DNA of 64,000 nucleotides, from contig JAJECN010000057.1 of assembly GCA_022821965.1 (NCBI GenBank), positions 124,001 through 188,000 on the forward strand, in the 5' to 3' direction. This DNA comes from Candidatus Poribacteria bacterium (lineage in GTDB: Bacteria > Poribacteria > WGA-4E > WGA-3G). How positions within the stretch are numbered: the stretch's first letter is position 1; each line of letters starts with the position of its first letter. This document shows, piece after piece, positions 36,908 to 43,900 of the stretch. A program made the position numbers and the translations under genes. Under the pieces are notes generated by a model. The model saw only the letters and a list, made by a program, of their open reading frames with translations. It ran no database searches and was not told the origin of the DNA.

Positions 36908-38383
36908 TTACACTTCAACTTTGATAAAAATCAGAAATGTCAGTATAAATAGGATCAGATTCATGAGGAAAAGGAGTGACACATCCGGTAGGGCGCGTTG
37001 TGCGTTTTCCCAGACATCTGCCCGCTCAAAGCGAAACTGGGGCAAATCCCACCAATCTACGGTGCCTTGGTCAGAAGCGAACCATTGCCGACTGGCAAAC
37101 GCGTCTTTATCGTGGAAATAGTCAATCAGCATCTGGCGGTATCCTTGGGTGGCACGACTAAAGTCTAACATGCCATCTAAATCGGTGCCTGCCCAGGCGG
37201 AGGTTGCAAAGGTATAGAGGCTCGCAGGACTGAATTTCATCAACCGTTTATCCCATGTTGCTTGCCGGATGTCTGTCCGCGCCAAGCGTTGTTCGCGTAT
37301 TAACGCAGCTTTTTCTGCCAGGCGGATGTGCGTCGCACCGATGAATGCCTGATAGTTTTGGAAATGTGGGACGGACGGCTCCGAATCCGCGTCCACTTTG
37401 GTCATATTAAACCCGTGCCTTCTGCCACTACGAGAGCTCGACCCTGAATATCCTATGTTAAACCTTGGAGGTTCCCCGTCAAGGGGGCTGTTTGCTAAAA
37501 ATCGCTGTTCTTCTCGGTCTGCTTCTTCCCAAATCTGTTCAATCTGTTGACTTGCGGACTGTCGTTCAGCACGCATATCGCTCACGGGGTTGATGGCGAA
37601 CCGACTCCAGTTCGGATAAACAAGTACCAAACCAACCCATAAGAACATACAGAGCATCAAGGAAGTAGCCGTGCGGCGGGTTGTTGTGGAGATTAATAAC
37701 CCGATGAGGTAGAAAACGGATAAGTAGACAATTGTCGTCCAGACTATCCCACCAATTCGGAGGAAATCCGACCCGTTGAGTTGAATCGAACTCGCGAGGG
37801 AGCACAAAATCAGCACCATCAGCAGGCTCATGAGTACAGGCAGCAGCAAGCATATCATGGCAGCGATGTATTTCGCGAACAGAATGGACCCGCGCCGCAC
37901 TGGGTGTGAGATAACCAGTCTCAAGGTACCGCTTTCCCAATCACCAGCAATCGCATCGTAAGCGAAGAGTAAAGCGAGTAGACTTAGGACAACTTGAAAG
38001 ATGGATACCAAATCAATCTGAGAAAAGAGATTTAGATATGGATTCCCCAAATTTCGCGCGGAGATACTTGAGATCATCGGCACGTCTCCGTGATAAATTT
38101 CGACGGTGGTTCCCAACCGCTTGTCCAACCCCGCACTAAAGAGACTTAGGGGGTTCGGAGGGCGTTCAACAAAGAGTTCCAACCTCGAATAGGTTTCCGC
38201 TTTTACTGCTTTCTCGCGATGAACTTTCTCTTGCTGGCTATAGTTCGCGACTCGGTTTTCGTGCTCATCAATCAGCACAACGGTATTGGCGACGACAAGC
38301 AGAAGCGTAATCACGACCGCGACGAAGAATCGCGCGCTCATCAGATGCGTCAGGAGTTCTTGGCGTATCAGTGTGCGTAACAT
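36908..38383 (-). CDS. ABC-2 type transporter permease, type A (copy 3)
   Basis: 491 residues. Helix 1 (ARFFVAVVITLLLVVANTVV), then RPPNPLSLFSAGLDKRLG as in other type A members, coupling region GDWESGTLRLVISHPVRRG, core helices, a soluble loop with an SGSSSRSGRRHG stretch, and a C-terminal helix. GAGGTT precedes the ATG. Close paralog: 49041. It starts 39 bases after the selenoprotein stop, so it could be in the same transcript as the selenoproteins. Confidence 0.88.
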   Translation of the reverse strand: MLRTLIRQELLTHLMSARFFVAVVITLLLVVANTVVLIDEHENRVANYSQQEKVHREKAVKAETYSRLELFVERPPNPLSLFSAGLDKRLGTTVEIYHGDVPMISSISARNLGNPYLNLFSQIDLVSIFQVVLSLLALLFAYDAIAGDWESGTLRLVISHPVRRGSILFAKYIAAMICLLLPVLMSLLMVLILCSLASSIQLNGSDFLRIGGIVWTTIVYLSVFYLIGLLISTTTRRTATSLMLCMFLWVGLVLVYPNWSRFAINPVSDMRAERQSASQQIEQIWEEADREEQRFLANSPLDGEPPRFNIGYSGSSSRSGRRHGFNMTKVDADSEPSVPHFQNYQAFIGATHIRLAEKAALIREQRLARTDIRQATWDKRLMKFSPASLYTFATSAWAGTDLDGMLDFSRATQGYRQMLIDYFHDKDAFASRQWFASDQGTVDWWDLPQFRFERADVWENAQRALPDVSLLFLMNLILFILTFLIFIKVEV

Positions 38384-38422: not shown

Positions 38423-40096
38423 TTACCGAATGGAGATTCGTGCGCGAAAAGCATTGATACTTCCTGTCTCATCAACCCAACCACCGGTAGCTCTCAATTG
38501 AAAAACCTGTCCCTTTTCAAACCGATATGTGATTGTTCCTGTTTCGCCGGGTTGAATCCCCCACGCATGTGCAAGCGCGTCTTTGGATGTTCCTTCTGTA
38601 GAGGGTTCACTATTATCATCGAAAAGATCAAACGAACCTATTGGAGCCGTCCTGCCGATTTGAATATCAATGGTTAACACGCCACCGTTTTCAAACGCGG
38701 TCGCATCAATTTTTACAACAGTGTAATCTTGAGAGCCTGTTTCAGGTATCCGAAAAGTGTCTAATACCTCTATTGAAGGCTGCACAGGGTCAAGCACAAC
38801 GTTCAGACTGCTTGATAGAGCGACAGGGTCTTTCTCACCTAATCCGGGACGTTTTCCTTCTAATGATTCTACAAGGAACAACTGATAGTGTGCTGCCCTC
38901 GTGTGCCACTCGTACCGGGAGAGTTCATTGACGGGTTGCCTTCCCATAAGTTCAAGATCGGGCGAGATAATCAAACAATCTACAGGTGAGTGCCTCTTCC
39001 ACGCCCGAACGATTGTTTGGGTCAAAGGACGCATTTCGTCAATACCTTTTGCATCGCGCAAACGTTTCATATCGGTATTGAGCACCCATGTGTTGACAAA
39101 ATTTTCATTCAAGAATTTGATGTTCCCATCGTCAGAGAGAGCAACTGCCCTCAAATTTTTGCCGCTCCCTCAGCATGCTTCGTCATCAAGCGGACCATTT
39201 GTTGAAACAACATGAATCGGTTTCTGTTGTGTCTGTGCCATTTCCAATGCTTCGTTTACCGATACCCAATTGATTTGTTGTGATTTATAGAAACGCAGCG
39301 TCAGGACACGTTTGGTTTCTGCTAAGGTTATTGCTTCAGAAAACTTGGTGTCTTGAATTATATTTTCCGTACCCGTATGGAGTTCGATTTGTGGACAAAA
39401 GCCGATATCCGCACCAAAGGAGGGACCGGCACCATGATAGCGGTTGACATCAAAATTGATTGTGCCTTTGGGAACGTACATCTGGAAGAAGGCAACTTTC
39501 CTTTCTGTCCGGTTGATAACAAGATTCCCAGTAAATTGTGAGGGGGTGAACCAGCCGTTCTCTAACTTAAACTCGGCATGAATGCGGAATACGATGTCCG
39601 CAAATTCAGCATTGTAAGCACGCAGGCACGCCCACATTCCGCGCGAATCTCCCGAATTAAGGTGCATATCCAGATTGGGATTCGGATGAAGTTGTCTCAA
39701 CAGTGCCAGTAACCCATCTTGTCCGATCTGCCAGACTTCGCCGACAGAAACGCTGTTTCCTTTTTTTGTAGGATTTTCGTCGGGAAATCTCTTCAATTCC
39801 TGCAGAGACGGTTTTTCTCTTCCTTTCTGCAGGCGTGCTTCAGTCGGGAGAAACGCCTGAAACACCGAGGTAGGATGATGCTTTTCAGGTTCGGCGACTC
39901 GTAGATTCGCCAGTGCATCCCACGTCAGATGAAAGTTGTCTTGGGTGTACTCGATTGGAGCAATGAAACCCTTAATCAACACTTTGGCGTTGTTGTCAAG
40001 CGTGAGTGCAATTCTGTTGGGAGTAGGTGCCTCATCCGCGAATCCGTATTGCAAAGACAGGAGGAACATCAGACAGCCAATACCTAATACTTTCAT
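38423..40096 (-). CDS. Selenoprotein N-like protein (Sec309), with C-terminal accessory domain (copy 2)
   Basis: Reads through one in-frame TGA (39170-39172) as selenocysteine: 557 residues from ATG 40096 (GAGGG upstream), signal peptide first. Around the TGA the sequence is PLDDEAC-U-GSGKNLRAVAL, then FLNENFVNTW, matching the SCUG redox site and following ISTW region of vertebrate selenoprotein N. Upstream FRIHAEFKLE, FTPSQFTG and PQIEL also fit that family. A hairpin follows the TGA. Residues ~450-557 are an extra beta-domain (DYTVVKIDATAF...INAFRARISIR) shared with 40145 and 41906. Likely a thioredoxin-fold oxidoreductase outside the cytoplasm. The EF-hand of the animal protein is not seen. 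Confidence 0.85.
39137..39172 (-). promoter_or_regulatory. Bacterial SECIS-like hairpin after UGA (copy 2)
   Basis: After the UGA (39172-39170) come 17 bases, then stem GAGGGC (39152-39147), loop AGUU, stem GCUCUC (39142-39137); one G-U pair. The other copy has GAGGAC-AGGU-GUCCUC at the same distance: stem position 5 changes G-C to A-U on both sides, and position 4 changes G-U to G-C. Loop position ~24 bases after UGA suits SelB binding. Confidence 0.75.
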
Positions 40097-40144
40097 GTTG
40101 AAACCCTCGGACAAAATTGAGAAGAGAGTGTATCTGTTGGCGGG

Positions 40145-41467
40145 TTATCGAATGGAAATTCGTGCGTGAAAAGCATTGATGCTCCCTTTCTCACTGAACC
40201 AATCGCCAGTAGCACCCAATTGAAAGACTTGTCCTTGATCGAATCGATAGGTGATTATCCCTGTTCCACCGGGCGGAATTCCCCATTCATGCGCGATTCT
40301 CTTGTTGGGTACGCCTTCTGTCGGCAGCTCGCTGGTCCCATTGAACAGATCGAATGAACCCGCTGCTTTGCCGCTACCGACTCGGAGGTCAATGGTTAAC
40401 ATGCCTCCATCTTCAAACGCGGTCGCATCAATTTTTACAACGGTATAATCCTGATGTCCTCTCTCTGGTGTTCGGAAAAAGTCTAATATTTCTGTTTGAA
40501 TCCGTTGGACTTCTTCTATTTCTGCTTTTGTCTCTTGCGTTTGCGCACCTATTATTCGGAGGTTGTCTACTTGTGGATTGGATCTACTATTTTTACCCGA
40601 CATGTCCATTTTACCCAGTTGTGTCCTCGCAGCAGGTTTCGCCTTGATGATGGGTTTCGCTGTTGCCTCCACAATGTCAACCTTTATAGCAGATACTGCT
40701 TCCAGACTATAGGGTTGCTGGAAACGGGATAGATATTTATTGCTTATTCCGAGAGTGAGTGTCGCCAAAATAGCGACTGACGCGGCTATCGCCCATGGCA
40801 CTATGGGTTTGCCATTTGTAGGAGGAACAGGTTTGATGCGGTTAGCTTCTCGTATAATGTTCTCAGTTAAATTGCTGGGCAATTGTACACTACTGAGCAC
40901 TTCACTCACCAAAAGTTCTTCGCCACGTGCCTTTAAACGCTTTCGCGCACGGCTAAGCCGACTCTTAATTGTGTTCGCCGATACCCCCAAAAATTTGCTA
41001 ATATCCTTCACTTTCATTTCGCCAAGATAGTGAAGCGTCACCACCGTACGTTCGCTCTCGGGCAGTCTTTCCAGAAGTCTTTTGACGATTTTATGCCGTT
41101 GTTCCGTCGTTTCCAGGTCAAATTGTTCCGATACATGATGTGTATAAGAGGCTTCTTCTATTTCTTCGACAGGTGTGTCCTCGAGTGATTGCACCATGTA
41201 TTTGTTCCTTTGAATCCAGTTAATGCAAAGTCGATCTACGATAACATAAAGCCATCCAGCAAACTGATTGGGATTTTTTAGTGTTGAGAGGCTTCTATAT
41301 ACTCGGAGGAAAGCATCTTGTGTAATTTCTTCGGCAAGATGAAAGTCCCCAAGTTTGCGCCACGCGAGCGCGTGAACGCTCTTCTGATGTTTTCGGACTA
41401 ATGCGCTGAATGCCTCTTCGTCCCCTGATAAAATTTTATGAATCAGTTGAACATCGTTTTCTTCCAT
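40145..41467 (-). CDS. Membrane-anchored ECF sigma factor with selenoprotein accessory domain
   Basis: 440 residues (AAGGAAG before ATG 41467). Residues 1-185 are an ECF sigma (HLAEEITQDAFLRVYRSL; ANTIKSRLSRARKRLK) of the same subfamily as the 7185 sigma part. One membrane helix at ~222-242 (VPWAIAASVAILATLTLGIS), then a linker, then ~328-440 a domain homologous to the C-termini of both selenoproteins (DYTVVKIDATAFEDGG ... GSINAFHARISIR). The domain is thus outside the cytoplasm. Encoded between the two selenoprotein genes. Inferred: the outer domain senses the same ligand or partner as the selenoproteins and controls release or activity of the sigma part. Confidence 0.85.
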   Translation of the reverse strand: MEENDVQLIHKILSGDEEAFSALVRKHQKSVHALAWRKLGDFHLAEEITQDAFLRVYRSLSTLKNPNQFAGWLYVIVDRLCINWIQRNKYMVQSLEDTPVEEIEEASYTHHVSEQFDLETTEQRHKIVKRLLERLPESERTVVTLHYLGEMKVKDISKFLGVSANTIKSRLSRARKRLKARGEELLVSEVLSSVQLPSNLTENIIREANRIKPVPPTNGKPIVPWAIAASVAILATLTLGISNKYLSRFQQPYSLEAVSAIKVDIVEATAKPIIKAKPAARTQLGKMDMSGKNSRSNPQVDNLRIIGAQTQETKAEIEEVQRIQTEILDFFRTPERGHQDYTVVKIDATAFEDGGMLTIDLRVGSGKAAGSFDLFNGTSELPTEGVPNKRIAHEWGIPPGGTGIITYRFDQGQVFQLGATGDWFSEKGSINAFHARISIR

Positions 41468-41480
41468 TGGAATGCTTCCT

Positions 41481-41909
41481 TTATGTTTTCCGTTTTTCTA
41501 CTTGTTCAAGTTGAGGGTTGTGAAATTTTCCCAGTCGCCACTCTCTATAAACGAGGAAACCACCAAGCAAACATAAGCAGCTGTATAGCAAGGATTTTAC
41601 CATGGCAACCCTTGTTAGGAAATCTCCGATATTCATATTCTGTACTCTCTCGCCTGCTATTTCACTCGTTAGCCATTGATCCATATATAAACCAAGAACT
41701 TGTTCAAAAATCGAATTAAAGATTCCACTGGTAAGGAGGATCGCGCTAATGAGTATCAACCCCTTTGACCTCGTCCGAAAACATAAAACCACCAGCAGCA
41801 CTGCAAGTGCCAACCATACAATGAGCGTCAGACCGTAAAGAACACTATTAAACATCGTCAGAGCCTCCCAAATGGCGAGTTTAGTTGTCATCCTATCTTC
41901 GTTAATCAC
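41481..41909 (-). CDS. Small integral membrane protein
   Basis: 142 residues (GTG 41909, overlapping the selenoprotein stop as GTGA; ATG 41891 is an alternative). About three membrane helices: VLYGLTLIVWLALAVLLVVL, LILISAILLTSGIFNSIF and LLYSCLCLLGGFLV. No family recognised. Position between selenoprotein 1 and the sigma factor, with translational overlap, suggests it works with them, perhaps as a membrane partner. Confidence 0.75.
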   Translation of the reverse strand: MINEDRMTTKLAIWEALTMFNSVLYGLTLIVWLALAVLLVVLCFRTRSKGLILISAILLTSGIFNSIFEQVLGLYMDQWLTSEIAGERVQNMNIGDFLTRVAMVKSLLYSCLCLLGGFLVYREWRLGKFHNPQLEQVEKRKT

Positions 41910-43900
41910 TTGGCATCATAAATGAGCCAGATACCTTCGACTTTTCGCATCTTAACTAATACCTCCAGGGGATGTGATCCAGGTACTTTCAATCGGAAGT
42001 GGAATTCATCACCTACATATTCGCTGGTCACAACCTCCATCTGACTCAACATTTGACGTATCTGAGGACGTATATCTTCTGGCATCTCCTCAAAATCACT
42101 TTCAAATTTTTCTCTGGCATCTCCTGTCAGCATTGAGCGTAGTGTCTCTGTGTCAAGATCTTTAAATGCTTTCACGTAAGTATTCATTGCATCTTCCGCG
42201 GATTGCCCCGGGCGCGCTGCTGACACTTTTCTCGGCTCCGGTTCCTGATTCGGTTCGACAGAGATTTTTGCCCAAAAAGCGTTGACCTGCCCTTTCTCAC
42301 TCGCCCAATTGCCGGTTGCCCCCAACTTAAAGAGCTGCCCTCGGTCAAAAAGGTGAACGATTTGTCCGCTCATGCCCGGCTCAATTTCCCGCGCGGAAGC
42401 CATCGCATTATCAGGCATACCTGTTGTGGGAAGTTCCGTGTCCGCGGCGAACAGGTCAAACGACCCCGGCACTTCGCCATTGCCCACCCAGATATCAATG
42501 GTGAGTTTACCACCGTTTTCAAACGGTGTGGTGTCAATCTCAACGGTTGTGTAATCCTGATTGCCATTGCCGGGCGCGCGAAAAATGTTCAGGATCTCCA
42601 TTGAGGTTCGGTGAGCATTGAGTGCGACGTGTCGAGTACTACCCTGTCCGGGGTTTTTCCCCTTCTTAAGTGCCGCCAAAGCATCCTTTAGAAATGTCTC
42701 GTACTTTTTCTCGTCAATACGGGAATCGCCCGGTTTTCGATAGGGTAAGTGACTTATCAACTCTAACTCGGGTGAGAGTATAAAAGTGTTTACCGAGCGA
42801 CCTATCTTGTGTTGTGCCACAGCCTCTTCAAGTGTTGTAGAGATCGTGGTTGCCAATCTACTTACTGGTTCACCCTTCTTCCCGCTCTGAAATTCAGGAA
42901 GATCCCCTAAAAGAACGAATACATTGACAAATTGTTCGTTGAGAAGTCCTATAATTTTTGAATTGGAGAGGACACCTGTCCTCAAATTTTTGCCGCTCGC
43001 TCAGCACGATTCATCGTCAAATACACCCCATGTCAGAAGCAGATGAATTGGGCGATCCTTCGCTTGTGCTTGTGCCACAGCCTCTTCAATCGGGAACCTC
43101 TCAATCTCGGCAGACTTGTAGAAGGCAGCTGCGAACATCGCTTTCGTCTCTTCTTTTGTAATGGTCGTCTCCCAGATAATATCACTCTGGTCATCTGCGT
43201 TCTGCCCGATCAGTTCCATGCGTGGGACGAAAACCATATCTGCTCCGTTAAAGGCGTTGATGTCAACATTGGTATTGCGAGGGGGGAGATAGAGCCAAAA
43301 CTCTCGAATTGTCCCACTGTTCCGATTCAGTACCAATCGTCCGGTAAATTGCGCTGGCGTAAAATAAGCAGGTGCATCCTTATCCAACAGGAATTCCGCA
43401 TGAACTCTGAAGACAATTTCTGCATAACCGGACGACAGTGCCCGTAGACACGCAAATCCACCGTCCGACTCCATACCACTTACGGCAATACGACGATTAT
43501 TTGCGTCAGTATACCAGGCACCCGGATTTATATGCATTTCAGCGGTTGCCCCGAGGTGAAACTGCTGAAGAAAGGGGACAACCTTGTTAACGTCAAGTTC
43601 CCATAGGTCTCCCACGGTAACATCTCCGTTGGGGAAAAAGGCTGTGAAAGCGTCTGCCTCATATTCCTGACTCGGATGCGCCGGTGAAAGGTTGTTGAAG
43701 ATGGCTGCATTTTCCGGTGAATAATTGGGCAGATCCAGTGCTGAATCTGCAATAGGTTCCCAATAGGCACTCACTTGTAATGTTGCTTTCTCATCTAATG
43801 TATTCTCGATGTTTATCTTATCAGCGGCACTTTGAAGGCTTAAGTTCAACCCCAAAACCGATATTGCTAACACTGAGACAATCAACCAATTCCTTTTCAT
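41906..43900 (-). CDS. Selenoprotein N-like protein (Sec300), with accessory and NTF2-like domains (copy 1)
   Basis: Reads through TGA at 43001-43003 as selenocysteine: 664 residues from ATG 43900 (AAGGAG upstream), signal peptide ending LQSAA. Site: VFDDESC-U-ASGKNLRTGVL then LLNEQFVNVF. Upstream FRVHAEFLLD and YFTPAQFTGRLVLNR fit selenoprotein N. After the thioredoxin-like part come the accessory beta-domain (DYTTVEIDTTPFENGG ... VNAFWAKISV) and a last ~100-residue domain (SAEDAMNTYVKAFKDLD) resembling DUF4878/NTF2-like folds. First gene of the operon; paralog of 38423. GTGA overlap with the next gene. Confidence 0.85.
42968..43003 (-). promoter_or_regulatory. Bacterial SECIS-like hairpin after UGA (copy 1)
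   Basis: UGA (43003-43001), 17 bases (one mismatch to copy 2), perfect stem GAGGAC (42983-42978), loop AGGU, GUCCUC (42973-42968). A compact stem with a G-containing loop at this distance is the form known for bacterial selenocysteine insertion elements. Confidence 0.8.

Follow-up and report, generated by a model that had tools for sequence, protein, structure and literature searches.

Two genes of a sponge-type Poribacteria bacterium, both lying in the 64,000-nucleotide stretch of DNA analyzed here (hereinafter the window), contain an in-frame UGA followed by a short hairpin. We posit, with a confidence of roughly 95%, that the two hairpins are the apical portions of coding-region bacterial SECIS elements (bSECIS), and that SelB-driven selenocysteine (Sec) insertion at the UGA yields an exported protein of the selenoprotein N family. 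We infer from the sequences that, once the ribosome arrives at the UGA, SelB-GTP with Sec-tRNA(UCA) would bind the hairpin loop via its C-terminal winged-helix domains and deliver selenocysteine, with termination by release factors being avoided. Translation would then give the complete protein, exported and with a thioredoxin fold, whose active site pairs Cys with Sec in a motif of the SCUG or ACUG type.

The UGA sites and the selenocysteine-decoding apparatus

Treating the UGA as sense fuses ORFs 43001–43900 and 41906–42985 (copy 1) and ORFs 39170–40114 and 38423–39154 (copy 2), each pair into a single protein of the length given in Table 1; the two proteins share 38% identity in the family alignment. 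The coordinates that the initial annotation had assigned to the hairpins, along with their 6-bp stems, 4-nt loops and 17-nt spacing after the UGA, proved exact in both copies, as did the two differences that it had noted between the stems, namely G-C/A-U at +22/+29 and G-U/G-C at +21/+30. Mechanical ORF calling splits both genes, which would suit a UGA that truly terminates translation, with what follows it being either a pseudogene or a distinct gene translated by re-initiation. However, conserved reading continues across the UGA in 175 sites of the family, and the codons on either side of it form one predicted thioredoxin-fold domain, making a genuine stop extremely improbable.

Table 1. Window positions of the two selenoprotein-N-like genes, their predicted recoding elements and adjoining features
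Feature	Position	Strand	Remarks
In-frame UGA, copy 1	43001..43003	-	Predicted Sec300; motif DDESCUASGK
Predicted bSECIS apical hairpin, copy 1	42968..42983	-	GAGGAC-AGGU-GUCCUC; +18 to +33 after UGA
5′ stem strand, copy 1	42983-42978	-	GAGGAC
Loop, copy 1	42977-42974	-	AGGU
3′ stem strand, copy 1	42973-42968	-	GUCCUC
Whole predicted recoding element, copy 1	42965..43003	-	UGA to +36; limits from codon-constraint profile
Selenoprotein-N-like gene, copy 1	41906..43900	-	664 aa with UGA read through; UGA stop at end; comprises a hydrophobic segment at the N-terminus, a SELENON-like region that includes the thioredoxin fold (residues ~246-416), a beta-sandwich and one further domain at the C-terminus
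C-terminal ~95 aa of copy 1	41909-42220	-	Residues ~560-664
In-frame UGA, copy 2	39170..39172	-	Predicted selenocysteine; motif DDEACUGSGK
Predicted bSECIS apical hairpin, copy 2	39137..39152	-	GAGGGC-AGUU-GCUCUC
5′ stem strand, copy 2	39152-39147	-	GAGGGC
Loop, copy 2	39146-39143	-	AGUU
3′ stem strand, copy 2	39142-39137	-	GCUCUC
Whole predicted recoding element, copy 2	39134..39172	-	UGA to +36; limits from codon-constraint profile
Selenoprotein-N-like gene, copy 2	38423..40096	-	557 aa with UGA read through; ATG start at 40096
ECF sigma factor	40145-41467	-	Between the two selenoprotein genes
142-aa protein	41481-41909	-	Directly after copy 1
ABC-2 type permease	36908-38383	-	After copy 2

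The window occupies positions 124001–188000 of contig C42 in the host genome, a 5.7 Mb assembly. This genome codes for the entire Sec-decoding set, selA, selB, selC and selD, all above curated cut-offs, with the scores of selA and selD lying far above them. The tRNA-Sec, identified by ARAGORN, has a UCA anticodon and adjoins selB, whose product contains wing_2 and wing_3 domains; these are the domains that touch the SECIS loop in the bacterial system. UGA also serves as the ordinary stop of 7 of the 20 long ORFs in the window and of 48 of the 147 family genes; hence, the code is not reassigned. This count speaks against the proposal that UGA is reassigned genome-wide, or is read through by a near-cognate tRNA with the hairpin merely stimulating the event. 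Hairpins placed after a stop can indeed promote recoding elsewhere, as with the SRE of animal SELENON (PMC8704476), but in this family the UGA always falls within the Cys-Sec motif and the full sel machinery is present, so that we regard such decoding as very unlikely. selA and selB are known to be enriched in sponge symbionts (PMC5649159). The selD gene itself (G000:C15:4585-5508; L130/L167) has an in-frame TGA, in the context VKCAGUASKLAPGEL, with a possible GCUC-CGGGU-GAGC hairpin after it, and apparently codes for a selenoprotein too.

The published model of the bacterial SECIS describes a stem of 4–16 bp and an apical loop of 3–9 nt, with a G in the first two loop positions that is usually followed by G or U, 16–37 nt between UGA and loop, and a minimum free energy of ≤-7.5 kcal/mol (PMC13188914). 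Across the 175 sites, the hairpin lies 3′ of the in-frame Sec UGA within the coding region, has a stem of 6–7 bp and a loop of 4 nt (6 nt in the variants with Glu at codon +10), and places 23 or 24 nt between UGA and loop. The loops, with G in the corresponding positions, are AGGU (101 sites), AGUU (47), GGUC (19), AGGUGA (4), ACGU (2), AGGC (1) and AGUUGA (1), the two ACGU variants adopting a shifted register with the loop CGUG. The minimum free energy over +1 to +45 is ≤-7.5 kcal/mol in 174 of the 175; for copies 1 and 2 it is -11.3 and -11.7, the latter value coming from a competing fold, and the 22-nt hairpins alone reach -9.5 and -8.6, respectively. Thus, the SECIS-like reading offered by the initial annotation agrees with the published model and with a complete bacterial selenocysteine machinery in the genome. 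Judged by its sequence features, the hairpin is almost certainly a real bacterial SECIS element, and one of an already known kind. Scans of Rfam at gathering and permissive thresholds gave no match to a SECIS family.

Like the E. coli fdhF element (..GGUUGC-AGGUCU-GCACC, found in 5388 out of 5426 E. coli genomes), the Poribacteria element consists of an in-frame UGA and then, within the coding sequence, a short stem capped by a small G-first loop, and the hexamer GCAGGU across the stem-loop boundary is common to fdhF and the commonest Poribacteria loop and stem end. The two differ in that the fdhF loop starts 17 nt after the UGA and has 6 nt, as against 23–24 nt and 4 nt in Poribacteria, where the stem is an uninterrupted 6–7 bp without a conserved lower stem enclosing the UGA. 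Animal SELENON, an apparently homologous gene, likewise has an SRE hairpin shortly 3′ of its Sec UGA (PMC12839072, PMC8704476); however, the SRE is accessory to a eukaryotic 3′UTR SECIS, whereas the Poribacteria hairpin is the only element found.

Conservation, covariation and codon choice in the hairpin

The sample comprises 175 distinct in-frame UGA sites of one family in Poribacteria, drawn from 85 genomes of the phylum, 73 named loci and divergent genera; all named records with family relatives are from Poribacteria. The context TGC-TGA-G, with sense reading on both sides, is found at all 175. In 171 of them the stem is fully paired (6/6) in one or the other of two registers, and none has fewer than 5 pairs. 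The loss of the stem in further homologs had been named as the observation that would undo the SECIS-like reading; instead, the stem is maintained over the 175 sites. A bSECIS-type stem of at least 6 bp follows 174 of these Sec sites, but only 2 of 48 cases where TGA acts as the ordinary terminal stop in these genes. When searched with a covariance model of the element, the host genome gives its 11 UGA family sites, and no other hit scores better than E=0.02.

The two registers track the residue at codon +10. With Val or Ala (151 sites), 6/6 pairs form in 148 and 5/6 in three. With Pro (19 sites), the original register is broken and the stem is moved two bases on the 3′ side, with 6/6 pairs in 17 and a seventh pair in all, and four of the five variants with Glu also use the stem moved by two bases; the slid stem keeps 6–7 bp in both the Pro and the Glu variants. 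Additionally, a C-G pair replaces the G-C at the stem base in two FRAGPLC variants, and two LRARVL variants fold in the shifted register too. Three family members with an intact hairpin have GGA, GGA and TCA for the Sec TGA (L093:3922, L163:1086 and L164:1269, respectively), which are single-base changes to Gly (two) or Ser (one), not Cys. Either the hairpin can outlive the UGA following a recent loss of Sec, or these variants are assembly errors. Cys homologs were sought in the phylum as a control without the hairpin, and none was found, with only the two Gly and one Ser variants turning up.

A 6-bp hairpin is not rare by itself: a stem of at least 6 bp arises within the allowed range in 22% of synonymous shuffles, and dinucleotide shuffles of the two 22-nt hairpins fold equally well in 6/200 and 2/200 cases. 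The hairpin rises above chance because it is conserved across the family. RNAalifold, run on 45 divergent representatives, returns exactly the 6-bp stem unaided, and 99.6% of the pairs in these representatives are formed as compared to 97.6% in shuffles (0/500 as high) and 48–77% with a slid partner, although three of the six pairs are invariant among them and hence silent on covariation. Permuting synonymous codons within column and amino acid gives a mean of 833.9 pairs (sd 1.7, maximum 840; 2000 permutations) against the 849 of 852 observed; the same permutation on 41 representatives gives 241.6 expected against 245 of 246.

The initial annotation had taken the two base-pair differences between the copies as covariation and as direct evidence for RNA structure. 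On two sequences this was too strong, but with the family alignment the covariation is convincing, at one of the two pairs. This pair, +21/+30, is formed in 41 of 41 representatives (37.6, sd 0.7, under synonymous permutation) and ranks first or second among ~2,000 pairs of third positions. By mutual information over all columns it ranks only 9th–20th, probably as a result of amino-acid coevolution dominating that measure. On a tree inferred with the hairpin left out, parsimony has A-U arising seven times at +21/+30, three times directly from G-C and four times from G-U. The other pair, +22/+29, is mostly G-U across the family and lacks strong coupling. Accordingly, the best structural evidence is the +21/+30 pair, the shift of stem register and the codon-constraint profile, rather than the pair at +22/+29.

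In the codon-constraint profile, codon choice deviates strongly from background over codons -1 to +12 but hardly at +13 and +14. The deviation is greatest at Arg+7 (3.65 bits), which is AGG/AGA in all 175 sites against a background of 13%, and at Leu+11 (2.56 bits), which is CTC in 170 of 175 against 14%. For +1 to +36, the folding energy relative to synonymous shuffles averages z = -2.35; windows off the hairpin range from -0.2 to +0.4. These data bear on the notion that the stem is an incidental by-product of a conserved protein sequence, with the LRAGVL peptide happening to have self-complementary codons. The LRxxxL peptide is in fact conserved, and the above-mentioned 22% of synonymous encodings yield such a stem somewhere in the allowed range; yet the near-fixed codons at Arg+7 and Leu+11, a constraint that is strongest in the stem and ceases beyond it, the covariation of synonymous third positions and the amino-acid changes that come with a stem-keeping register shift together render a by-product barely credible.

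Since this constraint extends to the codons of the spacer, the RNA that functions is probably everything from the UGA to +36 and not the stem alone. The constraint at spacer codons +1 to +5 would also suit an element with a longer stem, in which GAGGGAGCGGC around the UGA pairs with GUUGCUCUCUC in the manner of a full-length SECIS enclosing the UGA, and copy 2 does have its energy minimum in this fold (-16.2 kcal/mol). Against it, only 77.8% of its cells are paired across the representatives, the same as in shuffles, and compensatory changes are absent; the A at +4 is paired in only 8 of 41; and copy 1 adopts the apical stem instead. We therefore consider the longer stem distinctly unlikely to be the real element. 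The longer fold of copy 2 including the UGA was itself rejected, as it is not conserved across the family, and we infer that a translating ribosome would cover this region on reaching the UGA. In isolation, copy 2 and some other sites have competing minimum-energy folds, and the mean pair probability of the apical stem in a -30 to +60 context exceeds 0.5 in only 93 of 151 sites.

A selenoprotein N-like family in Poribacteria

The apical hairpin, read as a bSECIS, belongs to a family with 11 UGA-containing copies in the host genome and matches in 69 of the 85 phylum genomes, not all of which cover the Sec region. Its invariant residues cluster at DExCUxxG..LR. An AlphaFold2 model of the Sec domain (pLDDT 89) predicts a thioredoxin fold at residues ~246–416 with the Cys-Sec pair inside, and the best solved-structure matches of this model in Foldseek are the thioredoxin-fold entries 3ira, 7tkv, 2lst and 2ju5. 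These matches, along with a weak PF03190 match in one member, indicate a likeness to DsbH/DUF255-type proteins, from which the family differs in that the sequence identity is 16–18% and the matches are without SELENON-like flanks of the Sec motif.

The flanks of the Sec motif strongly resemble what we take to be the sequence of human SELENON, a reference that does not come from a database record: the match has ~33% identity over ~220 residues (E ~1e-36), and the blocks presumably common to both are DD(E/Q)SCUGSG(K/R)xLR, FRIHAEF and FxPAQFTG. The active-site motif of SELENON is SCUG (PMC12839072), as in the bacterial family, and the spacing of the human Sec462 and Arg466 (PMC8967691) corresponds to that of the Sec and the Lys/Arg at +4 in the bacterial proteins. 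The latter differ from animal SELENON in having an N-terminal hydrophobic segment resembling a signal peptide, added beta-sandwich and other C-terminal domains, and a coding-region bSECIS in place of the 3′UTR SECIS plus SRE. Pfam detected no EF-hand (calcium-binding) match in 32 members; given this, and a SELENON reference that is not a database record, we call these proteins selenoprotein-N homologs and not SELENON orthologs.

Searches of the two window proteins against Pfam and NCBIfam gave nothing meaningful, a sequence search of the PDB found no relative, and no SELENON entry in the PDB, Pfam or NCBIfam matched the family. The full-length model yielded partial matches only, mostly beta-sandwich or weak, against the PDB and viral folds, and there was no match in the plasmid collection. 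These proteins likely function as exported thiol-disulfide reductases.

Several observations concern the domain architectures and gene-neighborhoods of the family. Two members are fused to an AhpC/TSA-type redoxin domain, one on contig C60 of the host genome (L016:1501-3516; C-terminal to the Sec domain) and its relative L143. The C-terminal ~95 residues of copy 1 match many Poribacteria proteins lacking the Sec domain and apparently constitute a mobile domain. The ECF sigma factor encoded between the two selenoprotein genes matches Pfam regions 2 and 4 and has a TM-like segment; an extension at its C-terminus shares 55% identity with the selenoprotein beta-sandwich domain (residues 429–549 of copy 1). 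This protein looks like a membrane-tethered factor with a sensor domain common to its selenoprotein neighbors. The 142-aa protein directly after copy 1 has no assigned function, and an ABC-2 type permease is encoded after copy 2.

Significance of the family

The host protein family is of more interest than the bSECIS element itself. The notion that this Sec-only family of Poribacteria, or its ancestor, gave rise to animal SELENON, with the SRE descending from a bacterial SECIS, strikes us as unlikely. A literature search found no work on Poribacteria selenoproteins or bacterial selenoprotein N; subscription papers lay mostly outside its reach, and a prior description may exist there. The loss of SELENON causes a human muscle disease (myopathy). 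As of a 2020 study, no solved SELENON structure existed (PMC7474598), and soluble bacterial relatives would offer practical subjects for structural and redox work. For the window, the Sec reading favored here means that the split gene calls represent two selenoproteins, and the whole family is probably mis-annotated as truncated ORFs. Because changes in the protein are accompanied by shifts in the register of the stem, the family also constitutes an unusual natural data set for the rules of the bSECIS.
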